Below are positions 17,063-63,776 of a stretch of 64,000 nt of DNA, in pieces. Source of the DNA: Cytidiella melzeri (Eukaryota > Basidiomycota > Agaricomycetes > Polyporales > Irpicaceae); contig JABYQR010000059.1 of assembly GCA_022592445.1 (NCBI GenBank), positions 62,001-126,000 of the forward strand. The letters are read 5' to 3'. Below the pieces are notes generated by a model. The model was not told where the DNA came from, made no database searches, and saw only the letters and a program-made list of their open reading frames with translations. Made by a program: the position numbers and the translations under genes. The first letter of the stretch is position 1; the number at the start of each line of letters is the position of its first letter.

Positions 17063-17183
17063 TAGTCTTGTTCCCAGACGCCCTGGTTCACCTTCTAAAA
17101 CAGGCAGGAGACAGCAAGAAACGAGACAAAGAAGAGAACCAGGACGTCTGGTGATATTGGACGAGTGCTTGTAGGTCACTCTC
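17063..17183 (+). repeat. Left terminal inverted repeat of copy A
   Basis: Starts TAGTCTTGTTCCCAGACG; an inner ggacgtctggtg motif follows about 85 bp in, and it ends gtaggtcactctc. It aligns over its length with the complement of 24616-24736, including a shared gcaggagacagcaag core. The repeated CCAGACG/CGTCTGG motifs are candidate transposase binding sites. Confidence 0.8.
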
Positions 17184-17249
17184 GGCACGCCGCGGTATCT
17201 CGTTTCCAAGTCGAAGATCTATGGGTGCCTGGCGTTTAACTATAGATTA

Positions 17250-17720
17250 CCAACAATGTGCCAGCGCACTGTCGGTCGCTATTGCTCCCTCTACCACGGC
17301 CAACGCTACAATTACAACCACTGCCCTGTACACCCTGTCGCAGCGGAGCATCTGCTGCGACGAGTTGTACAACTCCTTCGTGCGCAACCATGGCCACCAC
17401 TACGGCTACAGCCACCGCCTTGTACACCCTGTCGCAGCGGAGCATCTGCTGCGACGAGTTGTACAACCCCTTCGTGCGCGACCACGGCCAATGCTACAAT
17501 TACAACCACTTTGTGCGCGACCACGGCCACGACCACGACCACAACTACCACCCTTTGCGCTCTTGCTAGCAGAGCATCTGCTGCGCTGAGTTGCTAGACA
17601 GCCAGCAAACTTTTTTCCTCTGTGCCACCACCCTTCACACTCTCGCCGGCAGAGCTTCTGCTAGTGATGAGCTGTACGACCTCCTCGTGCACGATCACCA
17701 CCACCATGACGTCTACGGCC
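17250..17720. repeat. Degenerate 94-bp tandem repeat in copy A
   Basis: A unit beginning tgtacaccctgtcgcagcgg starts at 17327 and again at 17421 (period 94 bp, nearly identical over ~70 bp). More diverged echoes of the agcatctgctgcg core occur near 17570 and 17655. The array is open in several frames on both strands but the period is not a multiple of three, so I read it as a subterminal minisatellite rather than a gene. Confidence 0.6.
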
Positions 17721-18133
17721 CTTTTCTCCCAGCCTTTCGACCGGCTCAGCTTGCGCAGCACTCACGGGGCACACTCACTGCAAGATGCATCGTCTTCTCA
17801 AACATCTGCGCAGCAGGCTTTGTCCCTCTCACCTATTCATTACCTGAGGCACAGGATGTCAGCTGCACTGCAAGCGCAGGACCTCGCTGCACACATCTTG
17901 CTCTGAAGAGTCTTAACTCACCTTGCCCTCCGCCAATTCCCCCTTCACTCATGCACTCATTCCGAGCTTCATTCACCTGTCCTCTTCCAATTGTGCCGAT
18001 GTTTTTCCTCCCCATACAATTTCTGCACTTCCACCTCAATCATGTATCTACCTTGAAGGTTTACAATAGTAACTCCGCTGTTTCTCCCACTCAAGTAGCA
18101 TGAGCCTGACCGCAAAACCTGGAGCAACTCACA

Positions 18134-20888
18134 ATGGAGCCGCTTTACATAGACGATCTCAACACGGATGACAACAAACAATACGCAGACGAAGTTGATC
18201 CGCCCTCGCAAGCTGAACAAGTTCAGATAGACGAACAGGTACGACGTCCTGGCGGGATACTTGGACGCACTCTGCGTCTGAGTATTCTAAGACAATTGCC
18301 AGGTATGTCGCATTCAGTTTTTGCATCATAGATGTCGCACTTACCTTTTAAACATCTGTAGATGACGAGATTGCTCGGCGCATTGCCACCATCATCGAAC
18401 AGATGGAGGCACTTGATTTTGACGTTGCTAATTTCATGTGGTACATGAGCTGGTCGTCTCAGGCAGTCACTAGGCACCCCCGGATTCAGTACGCGCGAAC
18501 CGCGTTTCTGCATTGTGACAAGTTTCCTCACATGCTTCAGAAGTGGAGGGACAGCCGCCGAGGAGCTGGTACCAAGGCTGCCCGTGATACCCTCGACTTC
18601 TGGTCTATCAACAACGTCGAGCTGCTGATGAATCGGGAGATGCGACAGCTGGCAACGTACCTGCGTTCTCCGCAGAATGAGCTCACGGAAGAGAGCCTGC
18701 TATCCATCAAGCTCACTGACCTTGCCGCACAGATTCAGACCATTGCACCAATCTCATATCAAATCTTACACTCGCTTTCGTCCACTCCGAAGCAGCTCTC
18801 TCGACGCAGTACAAAGGATCATCTTGCGGTATGTCTCGCTTGTTTTGTCAGCGGATCTGATCTGTCACTTATCTCATATGTTGTCTCAGCCCATCACAAT
18901 GATGATCTGTGTGTCGCAGTATGGACGCTCGAGCCACCGCTGTAAACTCCAGAAGTTTAACAGCGTATACTTCAAGGCATGCGGATTGGCTGCACGGGAT
19001 AACGACACCACTCACTTGTACGGACTTACGATGTCCCAGAAGTGGATTTACAGTGCGCTTGAGAAGCTCCCAGAGGTTGCTCACAATTCCATGCTTCGGG
19101 ACATCGTACTGTACCCATGGTTTGGCGGCCATGACAATCTCAACCTCGCATTCAAGGTTTATGAGCAATGCATCGCCAACCAGTCTCATTTCGACAGTGG
19201 GACTGCTGCTACTGTCTACATCATCAAGCACCCTAATGTTACCGCTCCCAGTTGTCTAGCCTATCAAAAGCAGCGCGCGTTAGGTGTGCAACGTCCCATC
19301 AACAGCGCGGATATCATTCTCATGGACGCCAAGGACACCTTCAGCAATCGACAATTCGAGATTCATACCATCCTTCGGTTCCTCATTGACTCGCCCGCCT
19401 TTGACAGGTCCACCTGGCCACATAACGAGAGCCCAGGCCTATTGGGCCCTAAGCCAGTCACTCAGCTGCCGACTGGTGACGCGCATGTCCTGTGTCAATA
19501 TATGCTTGACACGGTGCACATTGAAGAGGCCTCACAGGACGGCAACCGCCAATGTCTCGAGGAATGGATGAAGTAAACGGGGATCAGTGGTGACCGGGCT
19601 TGTCAGGAGCCCGCTCGCAACCAACTCGTTGTCTGGGTTGGTGATCAGCTCACCACGGTACGTATTCGAGCTCTCAAGAAGGACTGAAGCCTGGACAATT
19701 CATTCGTCCAGCGTTTCAAGCAGTTTCTTGAGATGTTCGGATGGTTCCATGCTCAGATCGCCGAGGAGCACTCAATACACCGCCAATATCACACGACAAG
19801 CAAAGTGTTTGGCCTCAAGTCCGCGTTTGAAATCTTGAAGCGCAAAGGTCTCAACTTGCCATCTGTACAAGGTATGTCGATGTCTCTCACACATGATCTG
19901 ATTGCTAACGTTGTGATAGGAAATTTTCATCATACTATGCAGGAGGCCCTAAGACACACCGCGGAGGCACAGTTCTGAGACCTTTGGCTTGTTGTCGGCC
20001 GGGTCGAAGATCTCACGCAGCTTCGTTGCCGTACTCCCCAGCAGCTTATCAACCTCGCTGCAAAAATTCATGACAGCTACGCAACAACGCAGGCACTCTC
20101 CGAGATGAAGCAGAAGCCGCGTGAGGATCAGGACGATGTGCTCTACCAGAGCATCCAATTCTGTCAGGACATCCTCAACTACATCAGTCTCGACAACGCC
20201 ATCAAGATGGGGAATGTTGGTCGTTTAGAGAACCTCATCCCTCGACTGTTCTTCCGGTTCAATGGTGGCACAAGTAGCAACTACGCTATTGAGCTCCTGG
20301 AACTTTTGCAAGGAATGCTGCGCGAGTGGCCTGCGGAGTTAAGGTTTGTCTCATATCATGATACTTACCTTGTTACTGATCAATGCCTCAGGGCATTCAT
20401 GACGCGCTATTGCTGGCTTGCCAACACGAGCGGTCGTCTGGGTCGTTTCCTGGCATTTGACATGATACAAGAACACAACATACGGGACATCAAGGTATGT
20501 TTGACTCAGGTTTTTGGATCTCACCGTCTAATGCATTTGATCGTGACAGCATATCTTTGCAGTTCACGGGCCTTTCTCTAGCTGGGAATACATCAAGAAC
20601 ATCTCGGCTTCCATCCCAACCCAGCACAAGATTAAAGATCACGTCAAAGAGAACTTCAATCATTTCCGTCGCGGCAAATCCCACACCACCCCGGAATATG
20701 AGAAGGATGTTGTTGCCCTCCAGAAGGTCTATCACGGAGGTGATGCCCATGTATACACTGCGGGTCGACACCTGGAATCAAAGCTTCCTGACTATGTACT
20801 GATGGGTAGCGAAGCTACTCGCATCGACGCCACAATTTTGCGGTGGTGGCAGAAGAGAGTCCTCGAGAAGTCAATGAGGGATGAATGA
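18134..20888 (+). pseudogene. DUF6589-family protein, copy A (candidate transposase, interrupted)
   Basis: Starts MEPLYIDDLNTDDNKQY at 18134 and ends SMRDE at 20888, with several short introns (for example after 18301 and 20344). The N-terminal half is helical; the core shows HDNLNLAFKVYEQ (~19130), GTAATVYIIKHP, WVGDQLTT (~19640) and EMFGWFHAQIAEEHSIH, the conserved pattern I associate with basidiomycete DUF6589 proteins. It is homologous along its length to the gene at 60.8-63.5 kb. Three in-frame stops break it: TAA 19574-19576, TGA 19685-19687 and TGA 19976-19978. Each can be explained by a C-to-T or G-to-A change from the codon seen or expected in the paralogue. The DN and GDQL acidic pairs resemble RNase H-fold transposases, but that is inference. 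Confidence 0.75.
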
Positions 20889-20914
20889 CCATGTGTATTC
20901 AAATTATCTGTCTA

Positions 20915-23900
20915 TTACATCCATTTTATACGCTTGTACGGACACTCTGTCATGGGAGGCTCAAGGTCAAGAGTGAGACGCGAAGACGAGGCAGTTGGCA
21001 TGGGACCGGTAGTAGATCGAGTGCGAGGCTGAGGCGTTTGAGGAATTTCAGGTAAATCAGAGAGGTCCGAAGCTGGAACAACTGCAGAGCCAGACACTTG
21101 GGAAGACAAAAGCAATTCAGAGGACAAAGGCAAGGCGGCAGGCTGAGATCGATCAATAACAAATTTCTTCGAGGAAGGGTCATACTGCTGAACGGTGCCT
21201 GGTCGCGGTATAGGAGGGAGTCCTCTCTCTTCACGGTCCTCATCGCGGGAAACTTGTTGAGAGACATTGTACGCTTGAGTGTACGCAAGTGTCCCTGAGA
21301 CATTAGTCAAGCTCCGTTCCTCGCCATTGAGAGCCTTCTTAACCTCATTCAGCTGCGCAAATTCTTCGTCCATCTGAGTAAGATGCCACAGTGAGCTCGC
21401 GCTCATAGATTCGCGCAGATGCCAATCTGGCAGGGCAGTCCTCAAGTCTTCCTCGGTCTTGATTCGAGCTTCAGTTGCCAAGAGAGATATCATGCGGTTG
21501 GGGAGCAAGCTTTCGGGGCCAAAGACCGAGTATCGGAAGTGTAGCAACCAGTAGTCAGCCCGCCACACACGAAGAGACTTCAAAGCATGGCTCAGGCGGC
21601 TGTTCCATTGTTTCCCAGCGTTATTGGAGTAGATCGGCTGCAGAGGAGCTTGTACCAAAGGTCTTGTGGTAATCCGTCGGACAAGGTCGAGAGTTTCAGT
21701 CTCAAGAAGAGTCATGGGACGTTCCTGGCTAGTGACAAGCTTGCGAATGCAATTGTCGCAGCATGCCTCAATATCTGATATGCAAATGGTGAGTGTAACA
21801 GTTAAGGTTACACTCACCAGATAGTTGTTAAACTTGAAGGGGAGATAGTGAGATAGAGTGTAAGAGGTGTGGTGAGCGAAGTACTGGAGAGTACAAGGTA
21901 GTCCTTTATCAACAGAGTGGATAAGACTGAGGGGATATGCCCTCAGGAGTGCCTCTATATATACATGAAGGGGAGGACCCCAGGTACTACCCTAAGACCC
22001 CTAATACCTACATGAGTAAGCGAAGTAATTTACCTTACTAAGCATGCCCTATGCCCTAGTGGTGCCACTTCAATAATCAACCAATAGCAATTGTCCCCAT
22101 GACCTGACCCCATGACCCAGCTCCAAGGCTAGACTTGTTCTAGCTTGTTCTAAGACAAGGCTAGACTTTTCCAGAAGGTTCTAAGAACTATGACATCATC
22201 TAATGGAATGTTCTATACTATGACATCATAGTTCCAGCATGTTCCACAATGTTCCAGAGAGTTCTATCATGTGATACACAGATAAGGAAAGGAGCGCATC
22301 AGCGCATCAGAGACAGAAGGCGCATCAGCGCATCAATTGATAGGCACTGAGAATAAGCGCCGGAATAGGCGCCTGATAAGCGCCAGATAAGCGCTGGATA
22401 AGCGCCTAAATAGACGCCGGATAAGCGCTGGATAAGCGCTTGACAAGCGCTTAAATATTCCCAATAATACCGTTGCCTGGTAAGGCAAGTCTTGTAGAAA
22501 CATTGAAAATCTGTGACAGTGAGTATTGATATTACTTTGATCTCGTACATACTTTTGTTGCAAGGGGGATTGTCAAAATGCTTGTCAGTGATTTCTCGTC
22601 GACAATCTTCATACTGTGTGAACAAGCGCATATGCTCCTCTACATTCTTGCGATGCTGAAGCTCTGTATCCTCTTCTTCAGTGTCATTCTTCTTTGTGCA
22701 GCTATCCGCTGGTGCCTGAGCGTGTTCCTGATCCTGGCAATCTGCATCTGCGCGTTCCTGTTCATCAGTGCCTTGCGCGTCAAACACGTCCATCTCCTCG
22801 GGCTCGACCTTGATTGAAATCTCCTTGCTGTCTTTTTCTGCCTTCTTCTTTCCCTTCCCTACTAAGCGGGTCTTGCGTTTCATCATTTGAAAGACTGACG
22901 ACTCTGCAAGAAGAATAGCTACGGCAGGCTTGCCATCCCGACCAGCCCTTCCGGCATGCTGACTCCATTCATTGAGATTGGTAGGTATCATGTATTGCAC
23001 TACCCAGCGTAGATCAGGTATGTCGAGTCCCTGTGATACTCTCGCTCAGCTCAAGCTTCCGGCTAGATATGTAGACTCACCATACCAGCCACCTCTGTGG
23101 CGAAGAGAGTCCTAATCTTACCAGCACGGAAGTCACGCATGACTCGCGCTTTAGTCTCCGGATCACGAGGAGAGTATATAAACTCCATCTGGTCCCGGTA
23201 CGGTGAGTCCTCTGGGAGCTTGTTGCGCAGATAAAGATACGCTTTTCGGGCAAGATCTTTCTTGTTGAAATAGACAATTGCATGCTTGAGATCTTCTCCT
23301 TTGCGTGCACGATCCAGGAGAAATTCTAATGATTCAAGATCATTCTTGCCCCCCTTCATCCGGCACACGACAGGTATAATATTTGCGCGATCGTTTCCAA
23401 CGTTCAAGATGAAGGATCCCTTACGCGAGAATGATAAGGTATTCATCACAGACTCTAGCATGTCCGGAGGCAAGGTAGCTGACGCGATCATGATAGGCTT
23501 GGAGGTTAAGAATGTTCGCGCCTTCTCCACTTTGAGGAAGGCCGTTCGGAAACTATCCCCCCACTCGGCAACACAATGGGCCTCATCCAGAATAGTGCCA
23601 AGAAATTCCTTGGTCCATTCGGCATTCCGTATCATCTGTGAGAACTTCGGGTGCTTGAAGACCATCTCGGGTGATGTCACAATGACACGGAAATTGCCAC
23701 CTTTCAGCTGCTGCTCATACTTCCAGGTTAGTTGTAACAGGCTCAATTGATGCATAACATACTTTTTCTAGATCACTGTTTCATGTCTCTCCGTTCACGG
23801 CCAGCGCGGGGTATCCCATCTTGTTGAAACGCGCAGCCTATCAGGTACAATAAGTGCACCAATCCTCATTGACGTGTGTCTCACACAAATGTCACCCATC

Positions 23901-24404
23901 AGGGAGACTTACCTGGTCTCTCTCGAGCTCGTTAAGTGGAGATAGGATCAAAATCTTTGATGTCTTGGTCTCAATTGCTGCCAATGCAGCGGCAAAGGCC
24001 ATAGTTTTGCCGGAGCCAGTAGCAGACACCAGAGCCAAATCCAACCCCAGAGCAAAAGCCTCCCCGACATCTCCCTGATAATATCAGAGAATCTTCCCAT
24101 GGGTACGTGCTTGTATTTCGTCCTGCATGAACTGGTGAGTCTTCGCCCATGAGTACTGCCGGTCTTTGTTCTTTCTAGCTACCTCCCGGGCTTGCTGAAG
24201 GATTTGGTAAGATTCTGCATGCAGGGGGGTCTCCGGTGCAAGCGGCTGAACACGAGCAATGACCGCAGCATCAGGCTCATCTGGGGATGGCTTATTACGC
24301 GTCGGATGCGGAGGGGGACGAGCGGGAGCCTTGTTCTTCTGTGTATTACTCTTATCAATAGACTTCTTTTTCTTCTGGGGCGGTATGGTTGATTTGTGGG
24401 GCAT
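20915..24404 (-). pseudogene. RecQ-like DNA helicase, copy A
   Basis: Starts MPHKSTIPPQKKKK at 24404. In order: basic N-terminus; Walker A VSATGSGKT (~24010); ILDEAHCVAEWG Walker B (~23600); SATLPPD motif III; ATEVAGM/GLDIPD; and QHAGRAGRDGK motif VI (~22950). An acidic Glu-rich linker, a CRRE...CCDNCIRK zinc-binding region (~21760) and a long Ser/Pro-rich tail to 20915 follow. Motifs and zinc cluster fit RecQ 3'-5' helicases; there is no Rep domain as in Helitrons. Two in-frame TGA codons (24084-24086, before the ATP-binding exon, and 23781-23783) make it a likely pseudogene. A 725-bp LTR lies inside the intron 21775-22552 and might still be spliced out. Confidence 0.85.
21794..22518 (-). 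mobile_element. Solo LTR (725 bp) in an intron of helicase A
   Basis: Ends TGTAACAG...CTGTGACA in the plus view, flanked by a perfect 5-bp duplication gtgag (21789-21793 and 22519-22523). No internal retroelement genes, hence a solo LTR left by LTR-LTR recombination. It contains repeated 10-11 bp units (gataagcgct-like, 22370-22450) and a TATA box on its sense strand. It lies between donor GTATGT at 22552 and acceptor CAG at 21775; without it the intron would be 48 bp. Confidence 0.9.
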
Positions 24405-24615
24405 TTTTGGAAGTATAAAGTGACTGAATATTGTATTGAGTGCTTAGGATATGTATTATGAAGTTTCTAGTGGCTATATGCGAGGGGGACACGAGAGAGG
24501 ACAAGGAAACATATGTCGACGCGACGCGACCACAGACCACCTGCAGCAGACGCGCACAGATTAGATTGGGCGTCTCGCTAGATATCTCGTCGTGACGTAG
24601 AACATTCTTTGATGG

Positions 24616-24736
24616 GAGAGTGACCTACGAGCGCCCGCCCAAATACACCAGACGTCTAGGCTTCTTTCCTTGTCTCCTGTCTTGCTGTCTCCTGCCTCGT
24701 TAGGAAAGTCTGCCTAGACGTCTGGGACCGAGACTA
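24616..24736 (-). repeat. Right terminal inverted repeat of copy A
   Basis: Complement of the left repeat. On the plus strand it ends with agacgtctgggaccgagacta, directly followed by the 9-bp duplication ggatatctg. Between it and the helicase start (24405-24615) lies 211 bp that should hold the helicase promoter. Confidence 0.8.
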
Positions 24737-24904
24737 GGATATCTGCAGGCCAACGGACTGCTGTGACTAGACCTTCCAAACACGGCAACGCCCCCTGGAA
24801 ATCGGGTAGCCCAGATTCATCGGGAATCCCCAGGGGCATTATCAGCTTTTGTGCTCGACCTTCATCCCGCAAGAAACAGCAAACAGCAACATACTTTACG
24901 AACG

Positions 24905-29926: not shown

Positions 29927-32087
29927 TCAAAGCAAGTCTGCATTACGCAACTGCGACCTCAAGATGCTCTCCCCCACTGCAAAGGAAAATCCCAATCAAC
30001 AACACTAAGAAGAAAGGGATTGGGAGAGAAATTGCGTACCGACTCCTAGCGTAAGCGCAGTAGCATGGGTATCCTATTGGAACAAAGTATCCACAACGAG
30101 GTGAGCAAAATGATGCCGTATGCTGGGAAAACAAGGTGCGTGTACGTACTACGACAGAGGTAAGATGGACCCGGAACGGTCGAAGACTCGACGTATGTTG
30201 CCTCGCAATTTCCTTGAAATGCTGTGCAAAGTCTTTTAAACAGAATCGCCCGGTCAGTGTCCGATTGAGAAGAGAGAGGGAAAGAGCACATACATTGAGC
30301 AACAGTCTGCAAATCATTTTTCCTCTCCCCGAAACTCGGCACATAATCCTTCACACGTATTCCTCCCTTCAACTTCCTATCCACTATCCTCCTCTCTCAG
30401 TCAGTTACCAAACAAACCAAGAAAATAAAGAGGACAGAAAAACAACAAGGACGCACACAAATCACACTTGTTGAGGAACAAGATCACCTGCGCGTTCGCC
30501 AACAACTTGCACGAGCATATCATCCGCCAAAGTTGGAAACTGTCCTCCAGCCTATTCACCTTCCGATCCTCGGCCAGTTTCTCGTCAAAGCAGCTGATTG
30601 GCGCGAGGAAGATGATCGCGTCGCAGTCTTCAAAATAAGAGAACCATGTGGGGCGCTGTTGATGGAAGGAGTCAGCTAGTGCGAGGAAAGAGAAAGACGG
30701 ATCGGGTAAATGTATGTACCTGCGTGCGAGATCCCCCGACGTCGTACAAACACCATTCTGTGCCTGCAGCAGGACCTGCCGAAAGATTGCAAGTTACGAA
30801 CGACAAAACCGTGCGGAAGAAGATTGGGTAAAATGCAAGTAAGTGAGTGAATAAGTGAGGAGTGTGATCGTCACATACCAGTTTCGAACAATATCCTGTG
30901 CTCCTGAACGCCCAGCGTCCGTAACCTGGCACGAACAATATCATCGTCCGTCGGTGTATAATCTCTCCGAGCGATCCGATGAACGTCGGGCAAAAAGCTA
31001 TCGAGAAACGATTACCCAGTTAGTTCTGAGCTCGCTGCGCGCGCACGCGAGAGAGAGAGAGTACTCACAAGCCAGGCATAAGGTCCAATCTCAACCGCCG
31101 TCTCCCCAACATCTCCTGTACGACCTCGTCCGCCCACAAAGCCTGCATATCCTCCTTACAACTCGCTATAATCTCCATCGTTTCCGAATCCTCGCTTGTT
31201 CTACCACCACCGTTACCGCTGTTGTTTATCCGTGCGTCGCTTCCCTTCCTCGCATGATGTCCCTCTGGTTTGCGCGCCGTCAGCCCTGATTTCCAAGTCG
31301 CGTTCGACCAAACGAATAACTCGTGATTGCGCCGCTGCTGCTTTGACGGTGTCTCAGTGCCGCTGCCGTTGCTGCTTGAGGAGGAGGAGGACGATATGGG
31401 GTAATCGCACAAGCCGAGTCGGTTCTGGACGTCAGTTTGCACGCTCCGAAGGGGGAGCAGACGAAGCTTAAGTAGACGGTGTTTCTCGGTGAAGTGTAGG
31501 GGAGGGAGGTTGGTCTGTACGGGTTTCTTGGGTTTACGCGGGGTGTCATCGTCGTCCTCGTCGTCTTCGCTGTCGCTGGAGTCAGCGAGATCAGAGGGGG
31601 AAGAGGCGGGAGACATTTCGGCGTTGAGGACGTCGAGGACGGTGTTGACGTTTCGGAGGAGGTTGAGCAGGATGATCGTCCGCCAGGCCGCGCGCTCTGC
31701 CGTCCATGCTTTCCTTGCATAGGTGAGTTGGAAGTCTGCGGAGACAAGAAAAAGGTTAGCATGGGCGAGGCCACCTTGAACTACTGAACGCACTCTTGAG
31801 TGTGGTGGATTTGCCTTTTGGGAGACCAGAGTCAGTTGATATGCGATGTCTTTTATTTTTGCGAGAGAGAATAACGAACCGCTCTCGCTCTGACCGAGTA
31901 GCAAAACTTTGATCGGCTTCTTCTTCTTCAACGCCGCCTTTTCCTCTCTCAGCTGCTGGTCAATCTCGTCGCTGATGCGTTTCGCCTCTGCCTCGCGGGA
32001 CAAACGCGCTCGACGCTGCTGCTCTGTCTCTCCCGGGGGCGGAGCGAGTGCGATGCTGAGAGGGTCGTCGTCTGCTGTGCGTCCCAT
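29927..32087 (-). CDS. Divergent heterotrimeric G-protein alpha subunit
   Basis: Starts MGRTADDDPLSIALAPPPGE at 32087 and ends LRSQLRNADLL at 29927, with many short introns. The P-loop LLLGQSESG/KSTTLK is split by an intron (~31880 to 31820). A ~150-residue acidic and Ser-rich insert (EDDEDDDD..., poly-Ser) follows in the helical domain. Switch I reads RARLRTLG instead of the usual R.KTTG, and switch II is DVGGSRTQRPTW, with Ser where the catalytic Gln (DVGGQR) normally is. The guanine motif LNKCDL (~30490) is kept, while TCAT is replaced by TSVV. The protein should act at the membrane in signal transduction and probably binds nucleotide, but GTP hydrolysis and Mg coordination are predicted to be abnormal. 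Expanded, divergent G-alpha sets are known in basidiomycetes. Confidence 0.85.
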
Positions 32088-33322
32088 GGTGGTGCTGGTG
32101 TGCGGATAATTTGAGAGGCTAGGGGTTCAAATGGTTTCTTGTAGGATTGTGATCGGGGCTGGGCACTGAATAGTACTGTATTGGGGGCGAGAGGGTATTG
32201 GTGAGAGCCCAGCTCCTGTCTTTTCACTCGCTATGAGAGTCGGAGGAATGGTCAGCCGTAGACAAGAGAAGGAAGCGATACAGTTCCTCAAAGGTTGCGA
32301 GGGTTTCAGCGCCAGGAAGAACGAGAAGTCCGAGGCGACGAGGATGCGAGACACGCTGGTGGGAGACGTGAAGAAGAAGGGGAGAGAGAGAGAGGGAGGG
32401 AGGAGAGGGTGAAGTGCAAGTTGGTCGTTAGATAAAAGTGAAACTAGAGATCGTAAACCTGGCTGTACTGAATCTCATCAGCTCGACACGCCGACGCCGT
32501 CAGTGGCTGATTTATAATTGCGTGATGATTATATAAACCCACCCACTACATTTAATATTTATCTCCGAGACTCGCAAAACATGCCCTCGCAGCCAGTGGA
32601 TAAATATACTGATACGTTCGACGGTCCTTCTTTGCACGGTGTGGGCATAGGAACAGGTCAGCAAGCAACCATCTGACGAAGCCCCCGGCTGGGAATGTGA
32701 GTGAGCTGTGTTCCTGTGTGCCTTGGTAGCATCTCCTTGATGAGCTAGTATAGTGTTGTGGCTGTGCTGTGATCATCGCACGCCTCTCTGATCGCTGTCC
32801 ACCGTCTTTTGCCTCCGTCGAAAATAAAACACTCACAGTCAAACCCACGAGGGGGATGCTCAGTAGTGTAGAGTCCGACGACGCTGCAAATCCACCTTGG
32901 CCAACGGTGGTCAACTTTGGACCATCTTTCGGGCGAGCAGAGTCTTAGTTCACAGATACAATCATTCATCATCTCATGGTTGATACATCATTTTGCCCGA
33001 TGATTATAATCGAAATCGAGTCCACGATAGAAAAGGGAAAGAGGCGGGATTCAGGTACCTATGTATACGCGCATCCCGCCTCGATCAAAGAGCAGGTCTC
33101 CGTCAAAGAATGAACCACCGACTGTAATGAGACATGGAGCTGGCAGTATTTCACAAACGCAGCTTGTACATGCTGTACCTTTCATCTCTCGTTGAGTAAA
33201 TCAGGGTAACACCATAGTGGTCGAGATTGCTGGACTGCATGCCGCCTCCAGTAATAAAACTAGTCAATAATGCGTCGTTGTTTTCCATCTATCAATGAGG
33301 ACACTTCAACATACATACCCTA
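32088..33322. other. 1.2-kb intergenic region before the G-alpha gene
   Basis: Upstream region of the G-alpha gene and 3' flank of the exchanger gene. A gaga-rich tract lies near 32375-32410 and a TATATAAA-like stretch near 32530. Short open frames are present but none has coding character or recognisable domains. Confidence 0.5.
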
Positions 33323-46793: not shown

Positions 46794-47013
46794 GGTCAGA
46801 GCGACACGGACAACACAAAGCAGGCGGTGAGCGTATTAAATTTTTTTTCCTTGAACTCCGACGTGTAGTGATGGTATTCAAATTATGGGGCAGCGATTTG
46901 TTGCTTAGTATCCTCCGATTTTGTGCGCTTGTCGGCTCCTTTTCTCTCCGCCACACTCCTCTCTGCCACGTCTACTTTTTGTTGTCTACAACTCGACTGC
47001 CTTCAGGACTCTC

Positions 47014-49131: not shown

Positions 49132-49617
49132 GTATCGACTGTGTTCTATGTGCACGCGCGCATCTCATTGGGCTTCGCAAACAGCTGCCTCGGAGGATTC
49201 AGCTTGGTGGACGAGAAGTTGGCGGGACTTTCAGACATGGCGAAGTAGAATGCATTGCAGGACCTCGAGGGGTGAACAGCTGAAAACGCAGGCAGTGATT
49301 AGATACAGCAGTCGCGGAAATACCCAATTCATACTTAGTTCACATATGCTTACTTGAAAGATTCTGATATGTTATCACGCATGCATTGCTCCTCTCTTAT
49401 TGTGCTACAGGGTGCTACAGACTGCTACAGAAGTCCGACTACGTAGAAAAGAAGACCATCTCAATAAACTACGGAAGCTTACACGTTCAAGGGCTTGCTA
49501 CGGAGTGCTACCGAGCCAACAGCCGCGAATAACTTTGCTACCTGAGGGGCACTTGTTTACCTGCCCTACCTAAACTACCAGAGCTCGGTAGATCTCGGTA
49601 GCAGCCGTCATGTTTCC

Positions 49618-49803
49618 AGATGAAATAAGCAAGTAAGAAATGTACGGATGCGCGGAATGAAGTGGAGAGGGATAATACAAATATAGAGATACCGATGAGG
49701 AACTAAAATGGAATAGATAAATGTATACTCGGAAGTATAGGAATCAGTCGGGTTGTCGGGACTTCCATATATGTGTAGTGATGGCACGTCATACATTACA
49801 ACA
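49618..49803 (-). repeat. Inner part of the copia 3' LTR
   Basis: Matches the first ~185 bp of the 5' LTR (complement starting TGTTGTAATGTATGACG). Immediately before it on the sense strand is a GAGGGGGAG polypurine tract (49804-49812). Differences from the 5' LTR are few (for example one of the T/A sites near 49727). Confidence 0.9.
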
Positions 49804-50648: not shown

Positions 50649-51726
50649 GGCAGACAATCGGAGTGATGTTCGGACGATCGTTGCCACAATTTATCTTGTA
50701 CATATGGTTGCAATTGTATTCGAGTTTGTCCAGGGTTCAGGTGTTAAGGTGGCGGAAGCAATGAGAATGGGCCTGGAGATTGTCATGAACGGTCTCATCG
50801 TGCCAAGCTTGTCGAAGTGCTTGCAAAAGTTCGCACCCCAGTGCACAATACAGTGCGCCTCATCAATGACCGTGCAGCGAATGCGCTGCATCCACGCAGG
50901 GTTGCGAATAAGCTTGGAGAACCGCTCGTGCTCGAAGATCATTTCTGGGGAGGTTATAATGATGTGGATTTTGTGCTTTTGAGGTCCTGGACATAAGAAA
51001 AACATCAATCAAGGAATCAGAATAAGCATGCGTACATACCTTATGAAGCTGATCGCTGTATGTTTCTCCGTTAACAGCTGCCAAAGGTATACCCATCTTA
51101 TTGAAGCGCGCAGCCTGCATATATGCATGTAAATAGCAGTTACCTGAGGTTTATGACGGTCCGCTGCTAACCTGGTCCTGTTCAAGCTCGTTCAAAGTTG
51201 AGACAATAATTATCTTCGAGTAGCCAGCCTTGTCCACAAGGAGGGGGAGAACGAATGGTAAGGTCTTGCCTGCGCCGGTGCCAGCCATCAAGACTGAGTC
51301 GAGCCCAAGGAGGATAGCTTCGGAGATGTCCAGCTGCCAGCTGTACGGAGTGTTGCCTGTGCGCCTGAGACACTCCTCTGTCATCCTCTGACGAGTAGCC
51401 GCAGAATCAAATTTTCGATTGGCTTCTGCATCCTTTCTTGTCTCCTCCAGCAATTTTTGGAATCGGGTCTGTTCAGCAATAGATAAGTCTTCCGTAGTCC
51501 GCTGTGCCCTCGGTCGTGCCAAGTCATCCGCTGATACGCCCGGAAATCGGCTAGGCGCGGAGACCCGGCAGCAGCCCGCCATTTGCGCGACCCGCGTCAT
51601 CCTGAGCGGCAAGTCCCTCCACTTTCCCAGTGTCACGGGCACGAGGAGTTCACCGAGGGCACGAGGAGTTCGCCGAGGATCCGAGGACTTGACAAGGAGC
51701 AACGCGCCGGAAACATCCGGGGCCAA
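50649..51726 (-). pseudogene. RecQ-like helicase B, N-terminal half (inverted)
   Basis: Sense is minus: basic N-terminal region, LSIAEQTRFQKLLEETRKDAE, the Q-motif NTPYSWQLDISEAILLGLDS, Walker A MAGTGAGKTLPF, STLNELEQDQ, AARFNKMGIPLAAVNGETY (after an intron), IHIIITSPEMIFEHERF, VIDEAHCIVHWG and ILIASATLTPE. It resembles helicase A throughout. A one-base loss near 50739 shifts the frame just before the NDRPNITPIVC segment, where the inversion breaks the gene. The missing C-terminal half is at 57780-60721 on the plus strand. The first ~50 residues before LSIAEQ may come from an inserted sequence. Confidence 0.8.
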
Positions 51727-53297
51727 GGAATTGCACCGAACTCTGACTCACAGACACGCCCCTTTTGCATCGGAGCATGGGCCGGCCAGCCACCAAGAGT
51801 TTCGGACGCGGGTCGGACCAACGGTAGAAGAAACTTGACGCGCAAACCCCGTTTCAGGAAGACTCCTATCACGCCACGCTGTGCAACTCCTGGACGGCGC
51901 CTCATCACCTGCTCGCGACGGTTGGCGCCTCTGCAGCGCAAGGGCGCGTGCCGCTACTCCGCGTCGACCAACGCTGTGTCCCGCCGGGCATCGACTCGCT
52001 GGGCATTTTACCTCCGCAGACGGAAGTATTCTGCCACCCCGTTTCCTCGCTCTCGCGTTTGGGTTTAGGACATAGAAGGAAAGGTTTAGGAGAGGGCCTG
52101 TAGGGTATATAAAAAGGTGTTGCTTGTACTGCGTAGACAATCAATCAATCCCCACCCCAGTTTCCAGAGTTCACTTTATGCTTTGCGTTCGCGTCGAGGG
52201 AGTCTCTTCGCGCCCATAGCCGTAGCTTCTTCTGCGTTGTCCCACTGCGACTTCCTTCCCGTTTATGTCAGCTGCATCTACCAATGACAACCCGCCTCGA
52301 GTTTGCCTCTACTGTCCCACCGTTCCCCACCTACCCGACGGTTGCTGCCCTTACCGCCTGCGCCCGCGCAAGGTTCTACGCCGTTACCCCATCATCCCCG
52401 CGCCCACGCCGCCGCCAGAGCCCTAAGCAGCGCCTACGGTCTCCCCTGAGAGATCAACTTCTAAATCACCCTCACCAGCGTCGTCCGTCGCCTCCGTCAC
52501 GGACTCGCTTGATAACTGCTCTCACTGCAACACTCAGAGCGACCACCCAATTCCCCTACGTACAGGACCTTTTGTCCCGCTCGACTGCAATCGCCTGCGC
52601 GCGCCGCACCCAGCTTGTTGGCTGTCACCAGACTTTGAGGGCGGGGACCACGGGTGCGAACTAGTGCAGTTCAATCTTACCAGCTCTACCGACGTCGTCG
52701 TTGGCCACGCATTCGCCTGCAATACGCATCGCCGCTCGGGAGGTGTTGTTCTACACTACCGCCCCCGCGTGCAGTCTGTCGAGTCCAATTGACTGCGATT
52801 TCACATAGCCTTCCGCTGCGACTCGCGCTCCATTAGCTTATCTTTCTCTTATGTTTCCTTTCGACTTCGTTATACGGCGTTTGCTTTTCACTGCGTTATT
52901 TTACTGCGTTACTGTGTTGCGTTTCACCTTCACTGCGTCGAGCTTACTGCGTTCACTTTCACTGCGCCCGCGTTTTACAGCGACCATTCATCTTCACCAG
53001 CGACCGCGTTTTGTGTTCGAGATTCCTATTGCGCCTGCGTTTTCCATCCGTGTTTCCCCGCGCGCCGTCTTACTACAAGTCGCGAGGTCTCCCGCGCGTT
53101 CTCTTTGAGACACGCTATAACTCTTTTGCTTTTACCGCGCCGACTTGCCTTTTTACCCGCGATACACGTGGTAGTTGCCCGCCTAGCTCCCTGCGCATAC
53201 ACTTTATCATAAACCTTGTCGCTCTTTTTTTAGCACCAGTAAAACTAGGACTCTAAGACCACCTCGCACACTTTAACACTTCCGCGCTTCCACACCT
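51631..53297. other. Unassigned ~1.7-kb insertion-like stretch
   Basis: Comparison with copy A suggests extra DNA here, between the helicase B region and a possible upstream exon. It begins tgtcacgggcacgagg, has a TATATAAAA box at 52107-52115, then a short ORF, then a stretch (52850-53100) with many tgcgtt/ctgcgtt repeats. The layout recalls an LTR and leader of a retroelement, but I could not find matching ends or a target duplication. Confidence 0.35.
52265..52792 (+). pseudogene. Short Cys-rich ORF with one in-frame stop
   Basis: About 150 bp after a TATA box, an ORF starts MSAASTNDNPPRVCLYC and runs 175 codons to a TGA at 52790-52792, interrupted only by a TAA at 52424-52426. The product has CxxC pairs (CLYC, CSHC), a Pro/Ser-rich linker and GDHGCELVQFNLTSSTDVVVGHAF. 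I do not recognise it. It lies inside the inverted segment and could be a retroelement gag remnant or transposon cargo. Confidence 0.35.
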
Positions 53298-53672: not shown

Positions 53673-54142
53673 ATTAATATTCTAACACATTTAAAGACGA
53701 GGAGAAGGAGAGATAAACGAGAACGAGAGGATGCAAGCGGAGGTCGCATGCAGTAATATTGAAAGCGCCCACTCGCGGACGCATTCAAGACGCGAGAATG
53801 AACGGTCACGTGCATTTGATGGGCTGTCACAGGCTGTGACTTGAGCCAAAAGTGAGCATAGCTTACTATCCCTCGGTCATATCACTTTGTCAGAATTCCT
53901 ACAGGCAGAAATAGCGCATAGGAATGTGTTTCTGCAATTTCAAGTGGGTAGCACAAAAATTGATCAAAGTTATATTCGTTTACACCTCACACTGAGGGCG
54001 CTTCAATGTGTGACCTATTGTGACACAGTCAAAACTTGGAGTCGCTCTGTCCTTCGATGCGGTCATGTGCGAATGATCTACACCCAATCACTACAAAGTT
54101 CACCAGACGTTCGGGGAGCGAGCTGTCTTTTTTCTCGCCATC

Positions 54143-54432
54143 TGTTGTAATGTATGACGCGCCATCACTACACATATGTGGAAGTCCCGACAACCCAACT
54201 GATTCCTTTACTTCCGAGTATACATTTATCTATTCCATTTTAGTTCCTCATCGGTATCTCTATATTTGTATCATCCCTCTCCACTTCATTCCGCGCATCC
54301 GTACATTTCTTACTTGCTTATTTCATCTTATCCTCTTTTCTATATACTTATAAAAACCCTGTAATTGGTTGTCTAAATATTCATTCACTCTTGCTATCTC
54401 TCGTGCACTTGAACGCCTCTCGCATCACAACA
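54143..54432 (+). repeat. Copia 5' LTR, 290 bp
   Basis: Begins TGTTGTAATG and ends CACAACA, with TGTTG/CAACA inverted ends and a TATAAAAA box at about 54350. The preceding 5 bp, ccatc (54138-54142), equal the complement of gatgg outside the 3' LTR at 43345-43349, so the element's ends can be matched despite the inversion. Confidence 0.92.
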
Positions 54433-54445
54433 GGTTATGAGCCCC
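54433..54445 (+). other. Copia primer binding site (initiator tRNA-Met half)
   Basis: Directly after the LTR comes GGTTATGAGCCCC. It is complementary to the anticodon arm of initiator tRNA-Met (GGGCTCATAACC), the half-tRNA priming site known from copia-type elements. Confidence 0.75.
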
Positions 54446-57500: not shown

Positions 57501-57779
57501 TCTATGGACTCAAGCAGGCTGGCCGTGCCTGGCGCGCAGAACTCAATCGCGTTCTGCTTGAGGCCCTCGGATTCACGCGCTCTCAAGCCAATCCGTGTCT
57601 CTATTATTGCGGAAACAAATCAGATTTTACGCTCATTGGTACTCATGTCGACGACTGCCTCGTGGCATCATCTGATCCAAAGGCCATAAACATTTTGAAA
57701 GACGATCTCAAACGCTACTTCAACATCACGGATCTCGGAGAAGCCACACTTTACGTCGGAATACAGATTGCTCGCCTGC
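54582..57779 (+). pseudogene. Copia gag-pol, 5' part (gag, protease, integrase, RT)
   Basis: From ATG 54582 (MATTTAAASKTSGSY): gag with LKGAKNYITWRVQI and a degenerate knuckle (CHGCGKEGHIKPES, last Cys replaced); protease TWLGDSGTSSH; integrase HHCC (WHCALGHINKGQ...CEACITAKHT) and DDE core (FSDIWGPVTT, LRVDNAKEYV, YNGVSERLNRT); and RT WVFTVKRDVNG. A one-base loss near 57262 shifts the frame inside YKARLV; the next frame resumes with HQVDVVGAYLNSPLQ, LYGLKQAGRAW and the catalytic THVDDCLVAS. It ends at the inversion breakpoint 57779 in QIARL. Copia integrase precedes RT, as here. Non-functional because of the frameshift and split. Confidence 0.9.
57763..57779 (+). repeat. 17-bp inverted duplication, right inversion breakpoint
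   Basis: acagattgctcgcctgc, complement of 50632-50648. Bases to the left are copia RT; from 57780 onward the sequence is helicase (KGAKELESLEFL). Confidence 0.85.
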
Positions 57780-60721
57780 CCAAGGGTGCGAAGGAGTTGG
57801 AGAGTCTCGAGTTTCTCATTTCCGAAGCTTACACGAGCAAAGAGCTCAAACGCGCTATTGTTTATGTGAACTCACGCGACTTGGCTAAAGTAGTGTGCGA
57901 GCATCTTCAAAGTAAAGTGCCTCCAGAATATCATTCCCGCATAGACTTCATTCACAGCTTACGGCACCCCCTTGCAAAAAAGCGTACAATGCGCCTTTAT
58001 CGTGAGGGTCGCATCAAGATACTGATCGCAACAGAGGTTGCAGGAATGGTAAGGAATTAATTGATCACATCTGTACAAACCAGCAAAGCTGACTACATGA
58101 CAGGGTATGGACATTTCCGACATACGACGGGTCATCCAGTTCAAAGTCACGTCTACTCTAAGCGAGTGGATGCAGCATTTTGGCCGTGCTGGTAGAGATG
58201 GAGAACCTGCGGAGGCTATTCTGTTCGTCGAGCCATCTGTCTATCAGCTGACAAAGAAACGGGTGACAAGAGTATTACAAGGATCCAAGAACTCTGCAGC
58301 TGAGAAGAAGGATGAGGTGACCATCAAGCGCGAGAATATTGAGATTGCTCTTGATAAAAGACCTTCGGTGTTGAAGCGTGCTTGGGATGTTATCGACGAA
58401 GACCAGGAGGATGAAGATCAAGCACCAGCTGCTGAGGATTGTGAAGATGATGAGGTCAGTATCGTCGAGCCCGAGCCTGGCATGGTTAGTGTGGGGGAGG
58501 AGGGGGGTGCAGATGCTGAGGAAGAGGAGGCTGCGGTTGTCACAGATTTTCAATGTTTCTACAAGACTTGCCTTACCAGGCAACGGTATTATTGGGAATA
58601 TTTAAGCGCTTGTCAAGCGCTTATCCAGCGCTTATCCGGCGTCTATTTAGGCGCTTATCCAGCGCTTATCCAGCGCTTATCAGGCGCCTATTCCGGCGCT
58701 TATTCTCAGTGCCTATCAATTGATGCGCTGATGCGCCTCCTGTCTCTGATGCGCTGATGCGCTCCTTTCCTTATCTGTGTATCACATGATAGAACTCTCT
58801 GGAACATTGTGGAACATGCTGGAACTATGATGTCATAGTATAGAACATTCCATTAGATGATGTCATAGTTCCTAGAACCTTCTGGAAAAGTCTAGCCTTG
58901 TCTTAGAACAAGCTAGAACAAGTCTAGCCTTGGAGCTGGGTCATGGGGTCAGGTCATGGGGACAATTGCTATTGGTTGATTATTGAAGTGGCACCACTAG
59001 GGCATAGGGCATGCTTAGTAAGGTAGATTACTTTGCTTACTCATGTAGGTATTAGGGGTCTTAGGGTAGTACCTGGGGTCCTCCCCTTCATGTATATATA
59101 GAGGCACTCCTGAGGGCATATCCCCTCAGTCTTATCCACTCTGTTGATAAAGGACTACCTTGTACTCTCCAGTACTTCGCTCACCACACCTCTTACTCTC
59201 TATATCTCTATCTCTCCCTCAAGTTAACCACTTATCTGGTGAGTGTAACCTTAACTGTTACAGCGGTCATCCAAGCAGGTGACACCGAGGTAGATCTAGC
59301 ACCAACAGATGTTGCGACTGTTCCTGTCGCAACATCTGCTGCTGATGGCGAGAACAGTCTTGATGCTGCGTTGTCTCCGGAGATAGAACCCCGCAAGAAC
59401 CTTGAACAAGGCATGCGGCAGATGGCTACTACAGACGGCTGCTGTCGTGATGTCTACAATGTCATCTTTCAGAACCCGCAGAGAGGCAGATGTATGTTCA
59501 AGCTTTTCCCTCAGTTCTGCTGCTGATTTTTTGTTAGCTATTGGTGAAAACTGTGGCAACTGCGACAATTGCATCCGTAACCTCAAGGCACGCACTGTTT
59601 GTCTGACAGCCCATCAGCAGTATATTGCGGACTTGGTGGACAGAATCGGTGTATGTCTACCTGACCCTCCTAATGATTCCCTCCATGTCAAGAAGCAGAG
59701 GCGTACTGGAGAACATTGTCAGAGTATTCTCAATGCTCTATACGAGTTTTGTTACAAGCACTGGACCCGACATCATAAGCGGTGCTCGTGGGAATCAGAC
59801 GAATTACTACCCAACAAGACCGCTGCGTTTCTTGCAACAAACGCTCATGTACGTACCCCAGAAGACTTGAAGACTTTCCTATTGGATTGGGCATATTTGG
59901 ACCAGATTGGCGCACTTGCGCTTGCCCGTGTACAGGCCGCAGAAGACCATTGGCACGAGACTCAAGGTACCGTGGACTGTATGATGATTCTGTCACTGAA
60001 AGCAACAGAAACACCAAAACAGACTAAGGACCGTTACAATGAAAATTGGCGCAAGAGGCGCAAAACTCTCAAGGCAACACCAGCCGTCAAGATGGATGAA
60101 AATCTTCCAGGCACGCTGAAGTTGGACTTGAGCTTATCTATGTCTCTTCCCTTGACCGCGTTGACACTTGCATCACTTTCTTCAAAGCCTGCGCCTCTGC
60201 CTTTGCCACCTGTGCCTCAACTCTCCAAACCCGCAGCAGATGCTATACCTTTGACCTGGCTCTCGAACGAAACTCCTCTTAGTTGGGCACCTCAAACCCG
60301 GACCCCGTCTATCAGAAAGCATTCGAAAGCTTGCAGCCAAGTTTCCTCAAAGGCTGCAAAGCCACAACAAACTCGGCGCGGTCGCACTAATTCTAGTCAG
60401 CAATCGGCTGCCGTTGCTTCATCCTCTCGCATAACTCTTGACAAATCTCCACCATTGACTCGTGCTCCAAGCAGCTTCTTTACGTTCTCAATGCTTTTGC
60501 CACCACAATCTCTCAAACCAGCCCCCAGTCCAGCTGTCTTTGCTATGTTGGAACACATGTTTCATGCTTCCGAGTCTCTAGCCTCCCATTCTGCTCCCTC
60601 TGATATCTCCGCTTCAGTGCCGTCTCAGTCCACACAAGATATTGACACAACACAACCACGTCGTCCAAAGCCTCGACAAAGGACCAAGATCCATGAAGAT
60701 TATCATATGCGCCTCAGATGA
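57780..60721 (+). pseudogene. RecQ-like helicase B, C-terminal half
   Basis: Continues helicase B: KGAKELESLEFL, RAIVYVNSRDLAKVV, ILIATEVAGM/GMDISDIRR (intron at ~58049-58104) and motif VI QHFGRAGRDGE, then an acidic linker. The reading frame then enters the solo LTR and stops at 58757. Beyond the LTR the gene resumes with CRDVYNVIFQNPQ, a zinc-binding cluster CGNCDNCIR (~59560) and a Ser/Pro-rich tail ending at 60721. Ends 43 bp from the convergent DUF6589 gene. Broken by inversion and LTR; the C-terminus beyond the LTR has no early stop. Confidence 0.82.
58538..59262 (+). mobile_element. Solo LTR (725 bp) in an exon of helicase B
   Basis: TGTCACAG...CTGTTACA, flanked by 5-bp duplication gcggt (58533-58537 and 59263-59267). 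Same length and nearly the same sequence as the copy in helicase A. It holds 10-11 bp gcgcttatcca-like tandem units (58610-58700) and a TATATATA box at 59092-59100. The interrupted helicase frame continues through it for about 70 codons. Confidence 0.92.
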
Positions 60722-60764
60722 TAACTGTACTGTAGCTCATGTATAATCTCGATACGCACAATAT

Positions 60765-63533
60765 CTATAGAATTGTCATTGATGAGTTTGTCTCTGAGGC
60801 TCGCTGATCTCCTCCCTCAACAACCTCCGGATCCTCCCAAATCTCTGTTGCTGCGCGGCTCACCAGTCGTTTCTCTGACCAACGGCCTATTGTGGCCTGG
60901 AGCTTGACAATGTTGCTACCAAGAGCAACGAAGTCCTTCGCACGTCGTGAGGAGTCCAGTTGTTGCTTTGGGGTATAGATGTGAACTTGAGATAATTTGT
61001 AGGCTGCTTGTAGCTGTGTGATATCCTTCTCTTTGTCGGGGGAAGAGTGGCTCTTACCGCGAGAGAAATGATTAAAATCGGCCTCAACGTGATCTTTCAC
61101 CTTGCGTAGGGTTGGAATTGCAGCAGAAATCTTTTGGATGTATTCCCATGTAGCATACGGTCCGTAAACCATGAAAATCGACTGCACGAAGTCAGCATTT
61201 ACATACCCAGAGTGAAGCTCAATTGTACCTTAATATCTCTAATGTTATGCTCTTGAAGCATGTCAAACGCCAAAAAGGCTTTGCCGTTGTTGGTATTTGC
61301 CAGCCAACAGTAACGCAGAATGAACTCCCTGAGACCTGCTGTGAGAACCAATCAGATGTGTATACCAATGCAAAATGTACCTGAGATCCTCTGGCCACTC
61401 GCGAAGCAGACCTTGAAAGAGTTCCAGCATCTCGATTACATACTTCCAGTTGCTGCCACCGTGGTAGCGGAACAGCAGGCGGGGAAGAAGATCAATCATT
61501 CTCCCAACGTCCCCAGTATGCATCGCATTGTCCAAGTTCACGTAGTCGAGAAGATCGCGGTTGAGGAGTATTTGGTTCATGAAGACATGGTCTTGTTGTG
61601 CCGTGTTCCTCTGCTTCTCTTTCTGGTAGGCAAACGTAGATGCGTAGTTCTCTACAATTCCCTCTGCAAGACTGACTAGAACCTCCGGGCTCTTCTCGCG
61701 CAGCTTTGCAAGATGATCAACACCACCAACGACTTCCCACACGTCGAGGATGTGAGCTTCAAGAATATGGTGGTATGCGTTGCAAACCTTCTGGTGAAAG
61801 TTCCCTTGTACTGACATGAAGTGTAGCCCCTTGCATTTCAGAAGGTCAAATGCATGCTTGAGTCCGCCTATGCCTGTGGTCAGATGCTGCTTGTGGATAG
61901 AATCCTCCTGCGCAATTTGCGCATGGAGCCAGCCGAACAGCGCGACAATGTGCTCCATGCGGTGCCACCAGTTCAAATCTTGGGCACGGATATTCTGGAG
62001 GCTGCGAAGGTGGGAAACAGTCAGCTGATCGCCCAACCAGAAGAACAGTTTCTTGTGCGACATTCGCTTCTTGGCTGTGTCTGTACCTAGTCCCAGCTGG
62101 CGTTCCCACTCCGCTACACACCGGTCGTTGCCTTCAAGCGAGACCTCTTCAATATGAGCAGTGTCGAGGAGGTACTGCATGCGAACGTGAGCTTTGCCAG
62201 TTGGAAGCTGGCGAATGGGGAGGGGGCGTGAGAAGCACGTATCATCCTCATGTGAATACTTAGTACGGTCGAATTGGGGGGAGTTCAGCAGGATATTGAG
62301 GACCCGCCATTTGTTGAAAGCAAAGAGACGTTCACTAGCCTTGCTGTCAAGCTCAAGGATTTCGAATGCGGTGATGGGATGATTACATTCGCGCCGCCAT
62401 TGCTCCTGATAGCTTTGAGCGTCGGGCAAAGGGATGTCCTGACATTCCAGAACATAGACAGTTGCGGCACAGCCGCTCTCAAAGACTGACTGATTGTCGA
62501 CGTGTTGCTCGATCTTGTTGAAGCGCACGTTCAGGTTGTCGTACGAGGTGGTGAACTCCTTGACATGTTCATGGAGGTCTCGCTGCATTGTGTTGCGTTT
62601 TGCCTGTGCCAGCTTCTCAAGCCCGATGTACTTCCACTTTTGACTCATTGTCACGCCGAGCATGTGCGTGGTATTGTTTGCCTTTGCTGAAAGTCCGCAC
62701 GAGGTAAAATAGATCGACATGAATTTTTGGAATTTACATCTGTGATGCGACCGTCCAAAGGACAGCATGCTGATGATAGCTACAATAGACTATAAACCTG
62801 TAAGCATACAAGCTACCAAAGCCAGCAATGTTACTTACCGGTGCATGATTCTTGTAGGTGTTGCGTTGCAGCTGCAGAGGCGTCGACAACGCCGCATGCA
62901 GTAAGCTCCAGGTCAGAGGAGCTACCCTCTGGTAATTCGCGGTCAGTCTGCTGAGCTTGACATTGAGCAAACTCTCCTCTGAGAGCTCTTCAGGAGGAGA
63001 TAGCACCAACGGCTTGAGGAGCCGCATCTCGCGATTCATACGCATGCGAACATTTTCATCAGCCCAGCGTTCCATTGTCATTCGAGCGGCCTTGGTGCGA
63101 ATGGCCTCACCATGTTTGCGCGGGGGCCAGTACCACTTCTCGAGAATCGAGGCTAGCATGTCGGTATGCATGAGCAAGGTACGTGCGTACCTGATCTTTG
63201 CGTCGTCAGTATTGAGCTGGAGGTTCCAGCTCAGATAGTAGAGGAAGTTTGGAAGGTCCATCTCCTCCCCAGCCATGTAGTCAATAATCCTTCCCATCTT
63301 TGCAGCGATGTCGTGGTGTGGTACTGTCTTGAGATACCTGCGCAGGATTCAGTCCGTGCCAGGATGCCACTAGCACCTGCGGGCAGCTCTATGTTGTCCA
63401 GGTCATCCGTGGGCTCCCCATTGTATTGTTTGTTGTCGTCATGGTCAAGGTCTGGGTCGAGTTGGTGTGGCATCTTGAGATCCAACGCCCCGAGATAGAT
63501 TTCGCGCAAAGTTTGAGAGGGAGGGACAAGCAA
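60765..63533 (-). CDS. DUF6589-family protein, copy B (candidate transposase)
   Basis: Starts around 63533-63474 (MPHQLDPDLDHDDNKQY resembles copy A) and ends at 60765. One base seems lost near 63345 (GILARTE, then ILRRYLKTVPHHDIAAK in another frame). The core from 62768 to 61320 is one clean ~480-residue frame: GVTMSQKWKYIGLEK, TSYDNLNVRFNKIEQHV, ESGCAATVYVL, RQLPTGKAHVRMQYLLDTAHIEE, FFWLGDQLTVSHLRSL, LFGWLHAQIAQEDSIHKQH, YVNLDNAMHTGDVGRM. Short introns link it to WLANTNNGKAFLAFDM and a C-terminal KVKDHVEADFNHFSRGKSH segment. It is the better-preserved of the two DUF6589 genes; the YDN and GDQL acidic residues are conserved in both. Function inferred, not shown. Confidence 0.75.
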
Positions 63534-63617
63534 GGAGTGTGCAATTCAAGTCGTACTATGGAGTAGCGTACAGAGCCAATAATTGTAAACGCCCAATCAT
63601 TTGCGCAGAAATCCATC

Positions 63618-63776
63618 ACATGCGGATGATCTACACCCAATCTATACAAAATGCACCAGACCCTCGGGGCCCACGCGTGCTTTTTGATTTGCCTTTTTCT
63701 TCTCAAACAGCACGCGCGCGCGTCTGCCTTTTTAGGAACGCAGTGACTGGCCCCGAGAGGTCTGGGTACGAGACTA
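63618..63776 (-). repeat. Right terminal inverted repeat of copy B
   Basis: Complement begins TAGTCTCGTACCCAGACC; an inner GGTCTGGTGCA motif and TTGGGTGTAGATCAT follow. The same features appear in the left repeat once its inverted part (54064-54142) is added. A gcgcgcgcg run occurs at about 63715-63722. Confidence 0.8.

Follow-up and report, generated by a model that had tools for sequence, protein, structure and literature searches.

A probable DDE transposase in Pfam family DUF6589, paired with a RecQ-like helicase in probable AcademH-type transposons of Cytidiella melzeri

What kind of mobile element keeps a gene of uncatalogued function beside a gene for a helicase? The question is raised by a 64,000-nucleotide stretch of contig JABYQR010000059.1 from the basidiomycete Cytidiella melzeri (Polyporales), here called the window, in which three segments, copies A, B and C, have matching termini and two of them, A and B, hold a DUF6589 gene together with sequence for a RecQ-like helicase. 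We read A, B and C as AcademH-type cut-and-paste DNA transposons, a placement to which we give a probability of roughly 0.88.

Copy A occupies positions 17063-24736 (plus strand; 7674 bp, including a nested 725-bp solo long terminal repeat, LTR), copy B 43301-63776 (minus strand, reversed relative to A and likewise of AcademH type) and copy C 42361-43283 (923 bp, non-autonomous). All are bounded by 18-bp inverted termini of the TAGTCT[C/T]G..CCAGACG type, the two ends agreeing at 16 of 18 positions in A, 17 in B and 16 in C. Each has a perfect 9-bp target-site duplication (TSD) on both sides: ggatatctg at 17054-17062 and 24737-24745 for A, gctgttctg at 43292-43300 and 63777-63785 for B, and atactgcgg at 42352-42360 and 43284-43292 for C. 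Inside A, a subterminal CCAGACG repeat near the left end (17145-17151, minus strand) is mirrored by one near the right end (24648-24654, plus strand). An earlier note on this DNA had drawn these same boundaries and repeats, and a window scan blind to terminal sequence (9-bp direct repeats around inverted termini with at least 14 of 18 positions matching, spacing 300-25,000 bp) returned the three copies and nothing else.

Elsewhere in the host assembly the terminus pattern TAGTCTCGNNCCCAGACG occurs 109 times, 55 times on one strand and 54 on the other, with no occurrence in a reversed-sequence control. The window and the extracted loci together contain 16 convergent terminus pairs, nine with a perfect 9-bp TSD and one (locus L008) with an 8-bp TSD; the remaining six are made of ends that belong to different elements inside the window. 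Counted by same-element pairs, 9 of 10 have duplications of 9 bp and 1 of 10 has 8 bp. Displaced 9-mers, used as a control for this comparison, gave 0 matches in 3116, and locus L074, which duplicates copy C, was excluded from it. No strong target motif was seen in 47 distinct flanks, two of which have an A next to the terminus.

By Pfam, the DUF6589 gene of copy A (PF20231; 18632-20578, plus strand, two open reading frame (ORF) pieces with E 1.3e-09 and 3.3e-45) lies tail to tail with the helicase gene (22302-23767, minus strand, with DEAD, PF00270, and Helicase_C, PF00271, pieces), and the pair is reversed in B. The DUF6589 gene of B, at approximately 61047-63348 on the minus strand (main ORF, PF20231 E 7.1e-82, match C545:123047-124381), corresponds to the annotated 835-residue protein P0001 (E 1e-107). 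Both genes are present in both copies in convergent order, as had been claimed; in B, the helicase lies in two pieces on opposite strands.

The pairing extends well beyond the window, and the refuting condition named in the earlier note, linkage at this one place, does not apply within this genome. Assembly-wide totals are lower bounds, at least 120 DUF6589 matches and at least 90 matches to the A helicase, which group into 82 and 86 clusters. A helicase lies within 8 kb of 59 of the 82 DUF6589 clusters in this genome, with the nearest neighbour convergent in 58 and divergent in one; that one, at C17:66141, has a second, convergent helicase match 3.2 kb away on its other side. Protein distances among DUF6589 copies and among their helicases are closely correlated (Mantel r 0.947, n = 14, with 0 of 5000 permutations as high), and remain so without the most distant element (r 0.948, n = 13); of the 15 element pairs extracted, C724 yielded no DUF6589 residues and was left out. 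The assembly-wide linkage and the correlated distances together indicate that the two genes travel and diverge together. The proposal that this is a two-gene transposon with terminal inverted repeats therefore stands, borne out by inverted termini, duplications and a linked pair found across the assembly.

Selection on both genes is compatible with the ratios of nonsynonymous to synonymous change (dN/dS) in eight copy pairs, which range from 0.08 to 0.53 for DUF6589 and from 0.08 to 0.59 for the helicase (six of eight calculable in each case), although they say little for young pairs, in which changes are few. The ratio was incalculable for the C151/C121 helicase (no synonymous change) and, through saturation, for both genes of C713/C127 and the DUF6589 gene of C1/C407. 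For Mycena metata, the records that carry P0074, a DUF6589 protein, and P0118, a helicase of the family, are equal in size at 152,891 bases, which suggests that the two are linked there too.

Which of the two proteins would move the element? The AlphaFold model of DUF6589 aligns best, by VIA-align 2, with Hermes, the P element transposase, RAG1, ISCth4 and Transib, and the first 31 of the 50 entries shown are all DDE transposases or RAG1. Residues D278, D448 and E690 are conserved in DUF6589, and the distance from E690 to the end of the structural alignment is similar to that of Hermes E572, P-element E531 and RAG1 E962, which we take to be the corresponding catalytic residues. E647 was considered as the third catalytic residue and rejected: in a second DUF6589 lineage (described below) 54 of the 58 proteins have H or Q there, whereas E690 is kept in both. 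The structure alignment (A2) comprises 87 of 108 DUF6589 proteins; the two-lineage alignment was limited to proteins of at least 640 residues, 52 of 108 from the first set and 58 of the 120 listed from the second, for which 525 were found. Hermes (a hAT transposase), the P element and Transib/RAG1 share the transposase fold with the model, which has a helical insertion before the presumed catalytic helix; sequence identity in the structural alignments is 5-12%. When the DUF6589 alignment was used as a profile against PDB sequences, nothing informative emerged: the sole hit at E<=1 was to a cysteine desulfurase (0.16). From the modelled fold, the triad, the linkage and the co-divergence, DUF6589 is very probably a transposase of the DDE type, the role that the earlier note had proposed for it.

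For the partner, a family profile built from 16 helicase sequences and run against solved structures found RecQ best (1oyw, E 1.8e-34). Among the best 60 of 98 matches, the next were other RecQ, RECQ5, RECQ1, BLM and WRN chains, with DEAD-box RNA helicases following at about 1e-11. Source names for the family's helicases include 'DNA 3'-5' helicase' and 'RecQ'. The proposed RecQ identity is upheld by this sequence profile and qualified by domain content, as six helicases scanned (P0109, P0110, P0111, P0113, P0116 and P0118) gave no hit at E<=1 to the Zn-binding or RQC Pfam domains specific to RecQ. The RecQ label thus rests on the helicase core, and RecQ-like is the safe name.

Movement has left its trace at the boundaries of near-identical copies. 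Inside the terminus, loci L048, L049 and L052 match at 99.8% over about 3306 bp; outside, the adjoining 336 bp are dissimilar. L041 and L042 (98.4% identical) and L047 and L051 (98.9% over 1912 bp) give the same picture, with homology in each group stopping at the terminus. L050 is 99.3-99.4% identical inside to the group of L048, L049 and L052. Treating L048, L049, L050 and L052 as four separate sites was considered and set aside: flanks are dissimilar in five of the six pairings, and the L048/L050 pair was not counted. Complete elements with 9-bp TSDs were recovered at L071 (7424 bp), L072 (6658 bp) and L069 (6088 bp), and a relative of A on contig C93 is about 97% identical in aligned stretches, with 6946 bp between its termini.

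Kojima 2020 (Mob DNA 11:15) is said to treat AcademH as a lineage of the Academ superfamily. Every feature that we could set against AcademH fits, and no difference emerged: a DDD/E transposase (by model and conservation), a helicase (DEAD, Helicase_C and a RecQ profile match), terminal inverted repeats, TSDs within the 9- or 10-bp range in nine of ten same-element pairs, and a fungal host in Basidiomycota. Within Academ, published accounts assign a helicase and TSDs of 9 or 10 bp to AcademH (PMC10045372) and report it at low copy number from Basidiomycota, Ascomycota and Mucoromycota (PMC10799480). AcademX, of the same superfamily, is distinguished by TSDs of 3 or 4 bp and a nuclease replacing the helicase (PMC10045372). 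The statement in the earlier note that no described superfamily has this gene pair is not supported, given the descriptions of AcademH in PMC10045372 and PMC10799480. One feature to set beside AcademH is that the two DUF6589 lineages found here differ in their termini, TAGTCTC and CAGACTC.

Structural kinship with Hermes does not make these hAT elements. TSDs are 8 bp in hAT and P elements and 5 bp in Transib, against 9 bp in all same-element pairs here except L008, and we know of no helicase partner in hAT, P or Transib/RAG1 elements. Mutator-like elements do make 9-bp TSDs, and one that had captured a RecQ gene is another candidate; P0001, however, matches no Mutator or MULE Pfam family at E<=1, and the helicase is no one-off, co-diverging as it does with the transposase over 13-14 elements, so that we regard this origin as very improbable. 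We give equally little credence to a KolobokH element, that is, a Kolobok transposase with a RecQ helicase. It would share with our elements a DDE transposase and a RecQ helicase in a fungus, but Kolobok TSDs are TTAA, whereas those observed here are 9 bp long and varied in sequence. KolobokH does encode a RecQ helicase and is known from fungi only, yet its RecQ lies downstream of the transposase domain rather than in a convergent gene on the opposite strand; the same source names a single Kolobok, from a rhodophyte, whose RecQ sits on the complementary strand (PMC9587614).

A further reading sets these elements apart from AcademH, in an undescribed superfamily of their own with 9-bp TSDs and a convergent pairing of DDE transposase and helicase. 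It would be in keeping with the absence of the name DUF6589 from the literature searched, which did not cover Kojima 2020, and with a comparison to AcademH that was made by description and not by sequence. Kojima 2020 may describe the same protein without its Pfam name. Against such a superfamily, the gene pair, the TSD length and the host phylum all match AcademH as published (PMC10799480, PMC10045372), and we consider it improbable, if less so than a Kolobok or Mutator origin.

Several observations weigh against the AcademH reading and the mobility and transposase function that it implies. L048 and L050 have 265 identical flank bases, starting in both at one distance, about 71 bp outside the terminus, the nearest 71 bases differing. 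In L070 (C724), one of four stretches scanned, no terminus pair with an 8-10-bp TSD was found, and the TSD of L008 is 8 bp, not 9 bp. For 23 of 82 DUF6589 clusters no helicase was found within 8 kb; some of these may be accounted for by contig ends or by helicases that have diverged beyond the reach of the query. With Foldseek by itself, no match was as good as E 0.001, the best being Hermes at 7.6e-3, and VIA-align 2 does no more than re-align Foldseek candidates. The missing Zn-binding and RQC domains belong here as well. The AcademH placement, a good fit, was reached through features and published descriptions.

Empty sites belong to the same side of the balance. The predicted empty alleles would hold a single ggatatctg for A and a single atactgcggctgttctg for C plus B, and two probes, each a join of 200-bp flanks (those of A in one, those of C plus B in the other), were run against the elements' own assembly. 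No empty allele of C plus B was found there, the two matches being the occupied site; this probe carried one extra G, as the TSDs share a base, and a difference this small is not expected to conceal a match. For A, none of 41 matches was an empty allele (40 of 845 candidates were scored, so the search was not exhaustive): two were the occupied site, and 39 covered the first 53-79 bases only, which are an LTR end.

Under the AcademH reading, we propose a model where DUF6589 would bind at the subterminal CCAGACG repeats as well as at the 18-bp termini and bring both ends together, then cut them and join them to a target site cleaved with a stagger of 9 bp. The helicase, whose RecQ relatives have 3'-5' polarity, might open DNA during end processing, or it might help repair or replication to restore the donor or target gap. 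The 923-bp copy C could be mobilised in trans.

What is new is the functional assignment, as a DDE transposase, for a Pfam family still catalogued as of unknown function. DUF6589 is found in many agaricomycete genomes and, on this assignment, can be relabelled, which would remove many spurious annotated 'genes'. New, too, is a second lineage of DUF6589, highly diverged, whose termini differ but whose gene pair is the same. Its representative at L069 has a DUF6589 protein about 80% different from that of the window lineage and termini CAGACTCCTACCCAGT (CAGACTC type, as against TAGTCTC), together with the same convergent arrangement with a RecQ-like partner and a 9-bp TSD. A RecQ-like helicase kept beside a transposase through such deep divergence offers a testable case for why some transposons carry a helicase of their own. 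It is tempting to speculate that two or more deep DUF6589 lineages reflect a two-protein transposition machine, obligate and inherited together since ancient times, whose mechanism requires the helicase, and that the window lineage might fall outside AcademH as currently drawn; we hold this to be unlikely.

Neither A nor B appears to carry both genes intact, as the DUF6589 frame of A has in-frame stops where the copy on contig C93 has none, and the helicase of B is split. Copy B had been taken for a single unit over its full 20 kb; its termini and TSD are as described, but it is no autonomous element of that length, holding as it does a Copia element, a Plavaka transposon and a solo LTR. Its left end consists of the outer 49 bases (43301-43349), followed by the 3' LTR of a minus-strand Copia element, which is split by the Plavaka transposon. 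This 3' part of Copia, with its limits set by eye, runs from 43350 to approximately 50726 on the minus strand, beside a gatgg border at 43345-43349. The remainder, a flipped 5' LTR and gag-pol recognised by Pfam, lies on the plus strand from 54143 to approximately 57730, its RVT_2 match extending to about 57788. The 5' LTR itself is at 54143-54433 (plus strand), and the ccatc that precedes it at 54138-54142 is the reverse complement of the gatgg at the other end. The helicase of B is likewise divided, into a first part with DEAD at approximately 50727-51747 (minus strand) and a second with Helicase_C at approximately 57731-58203 (plus strand). From the orientations and the common 5-bp border, we infer that one inversion explains both the split Copia and the split helicase, and would have flipped the first helicase part. 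Its breakpoints would lie near 50.7 kb, within the body of Copia, and at about 57.7-57.8 kb, within the helicase gene.

The Plavaka transposon (43461-49622, minus strand; PF18759 E 1.2e-92) has termini CATCAGGAAA..TTTCCAGATG and a 2-bp duplication, aa; lying within a Copia LTR within copy B, it makes three levels of nesting. Solo LTRs of one family are present in A (21794-22518, plus strand, 725 bp, 5-bp TSD gtgag, with an empty site in the contig C93 relative) and in B (58538-59262, minus strand, 5-bp TSD accgc). The 725-bp stretch common to A and B, 97.9% identical, was considered as a product of recent recombination between them and rejected; with its different TSDs, gtgag and accgc, it is a solo LTR that inserted independently in each.

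Copy C contains no stop-to-stop ORF of 90 or more amino acids. It abuts B because its right TSD (atactgcgg) and the left TSD of B (gctgttctg) have a base in common, the g at 43292. Termini also lie beside termini in L040 and L055, and such layouts may point to insertion into, or close to, related ends. A fourth copy in the window, truncated to its left end (8034-8143, plus strand), has TAGTCTCGAACCAGACG, the terminus type of L072, and a subterminal repeat; no right end for it was found in the window. Another non-autonomous copy, L065:1165-3043, is 1879 bp long with a 9-bp TSD and keeps helicase sequence; given its shortness, the transposase is probably missing from it.

To the left of copy A lies a Gypsy-type LTR element (9173-16919, minus strand) with chromodomain, reverse transcriptase, integrase and gag pieces. 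Its right side, taken from an LTR-like end at about 16919, is 143 bp from A. Ordinary host genes occupy 3339-4178 (Sec23/24), 31068-32126 (G-alpha-like, below the Pfam cut-off), 33326-34978 (a sodium/proton exchanger) and 36074-37225 (a member of the 60-kDa inner-membrane protein family).

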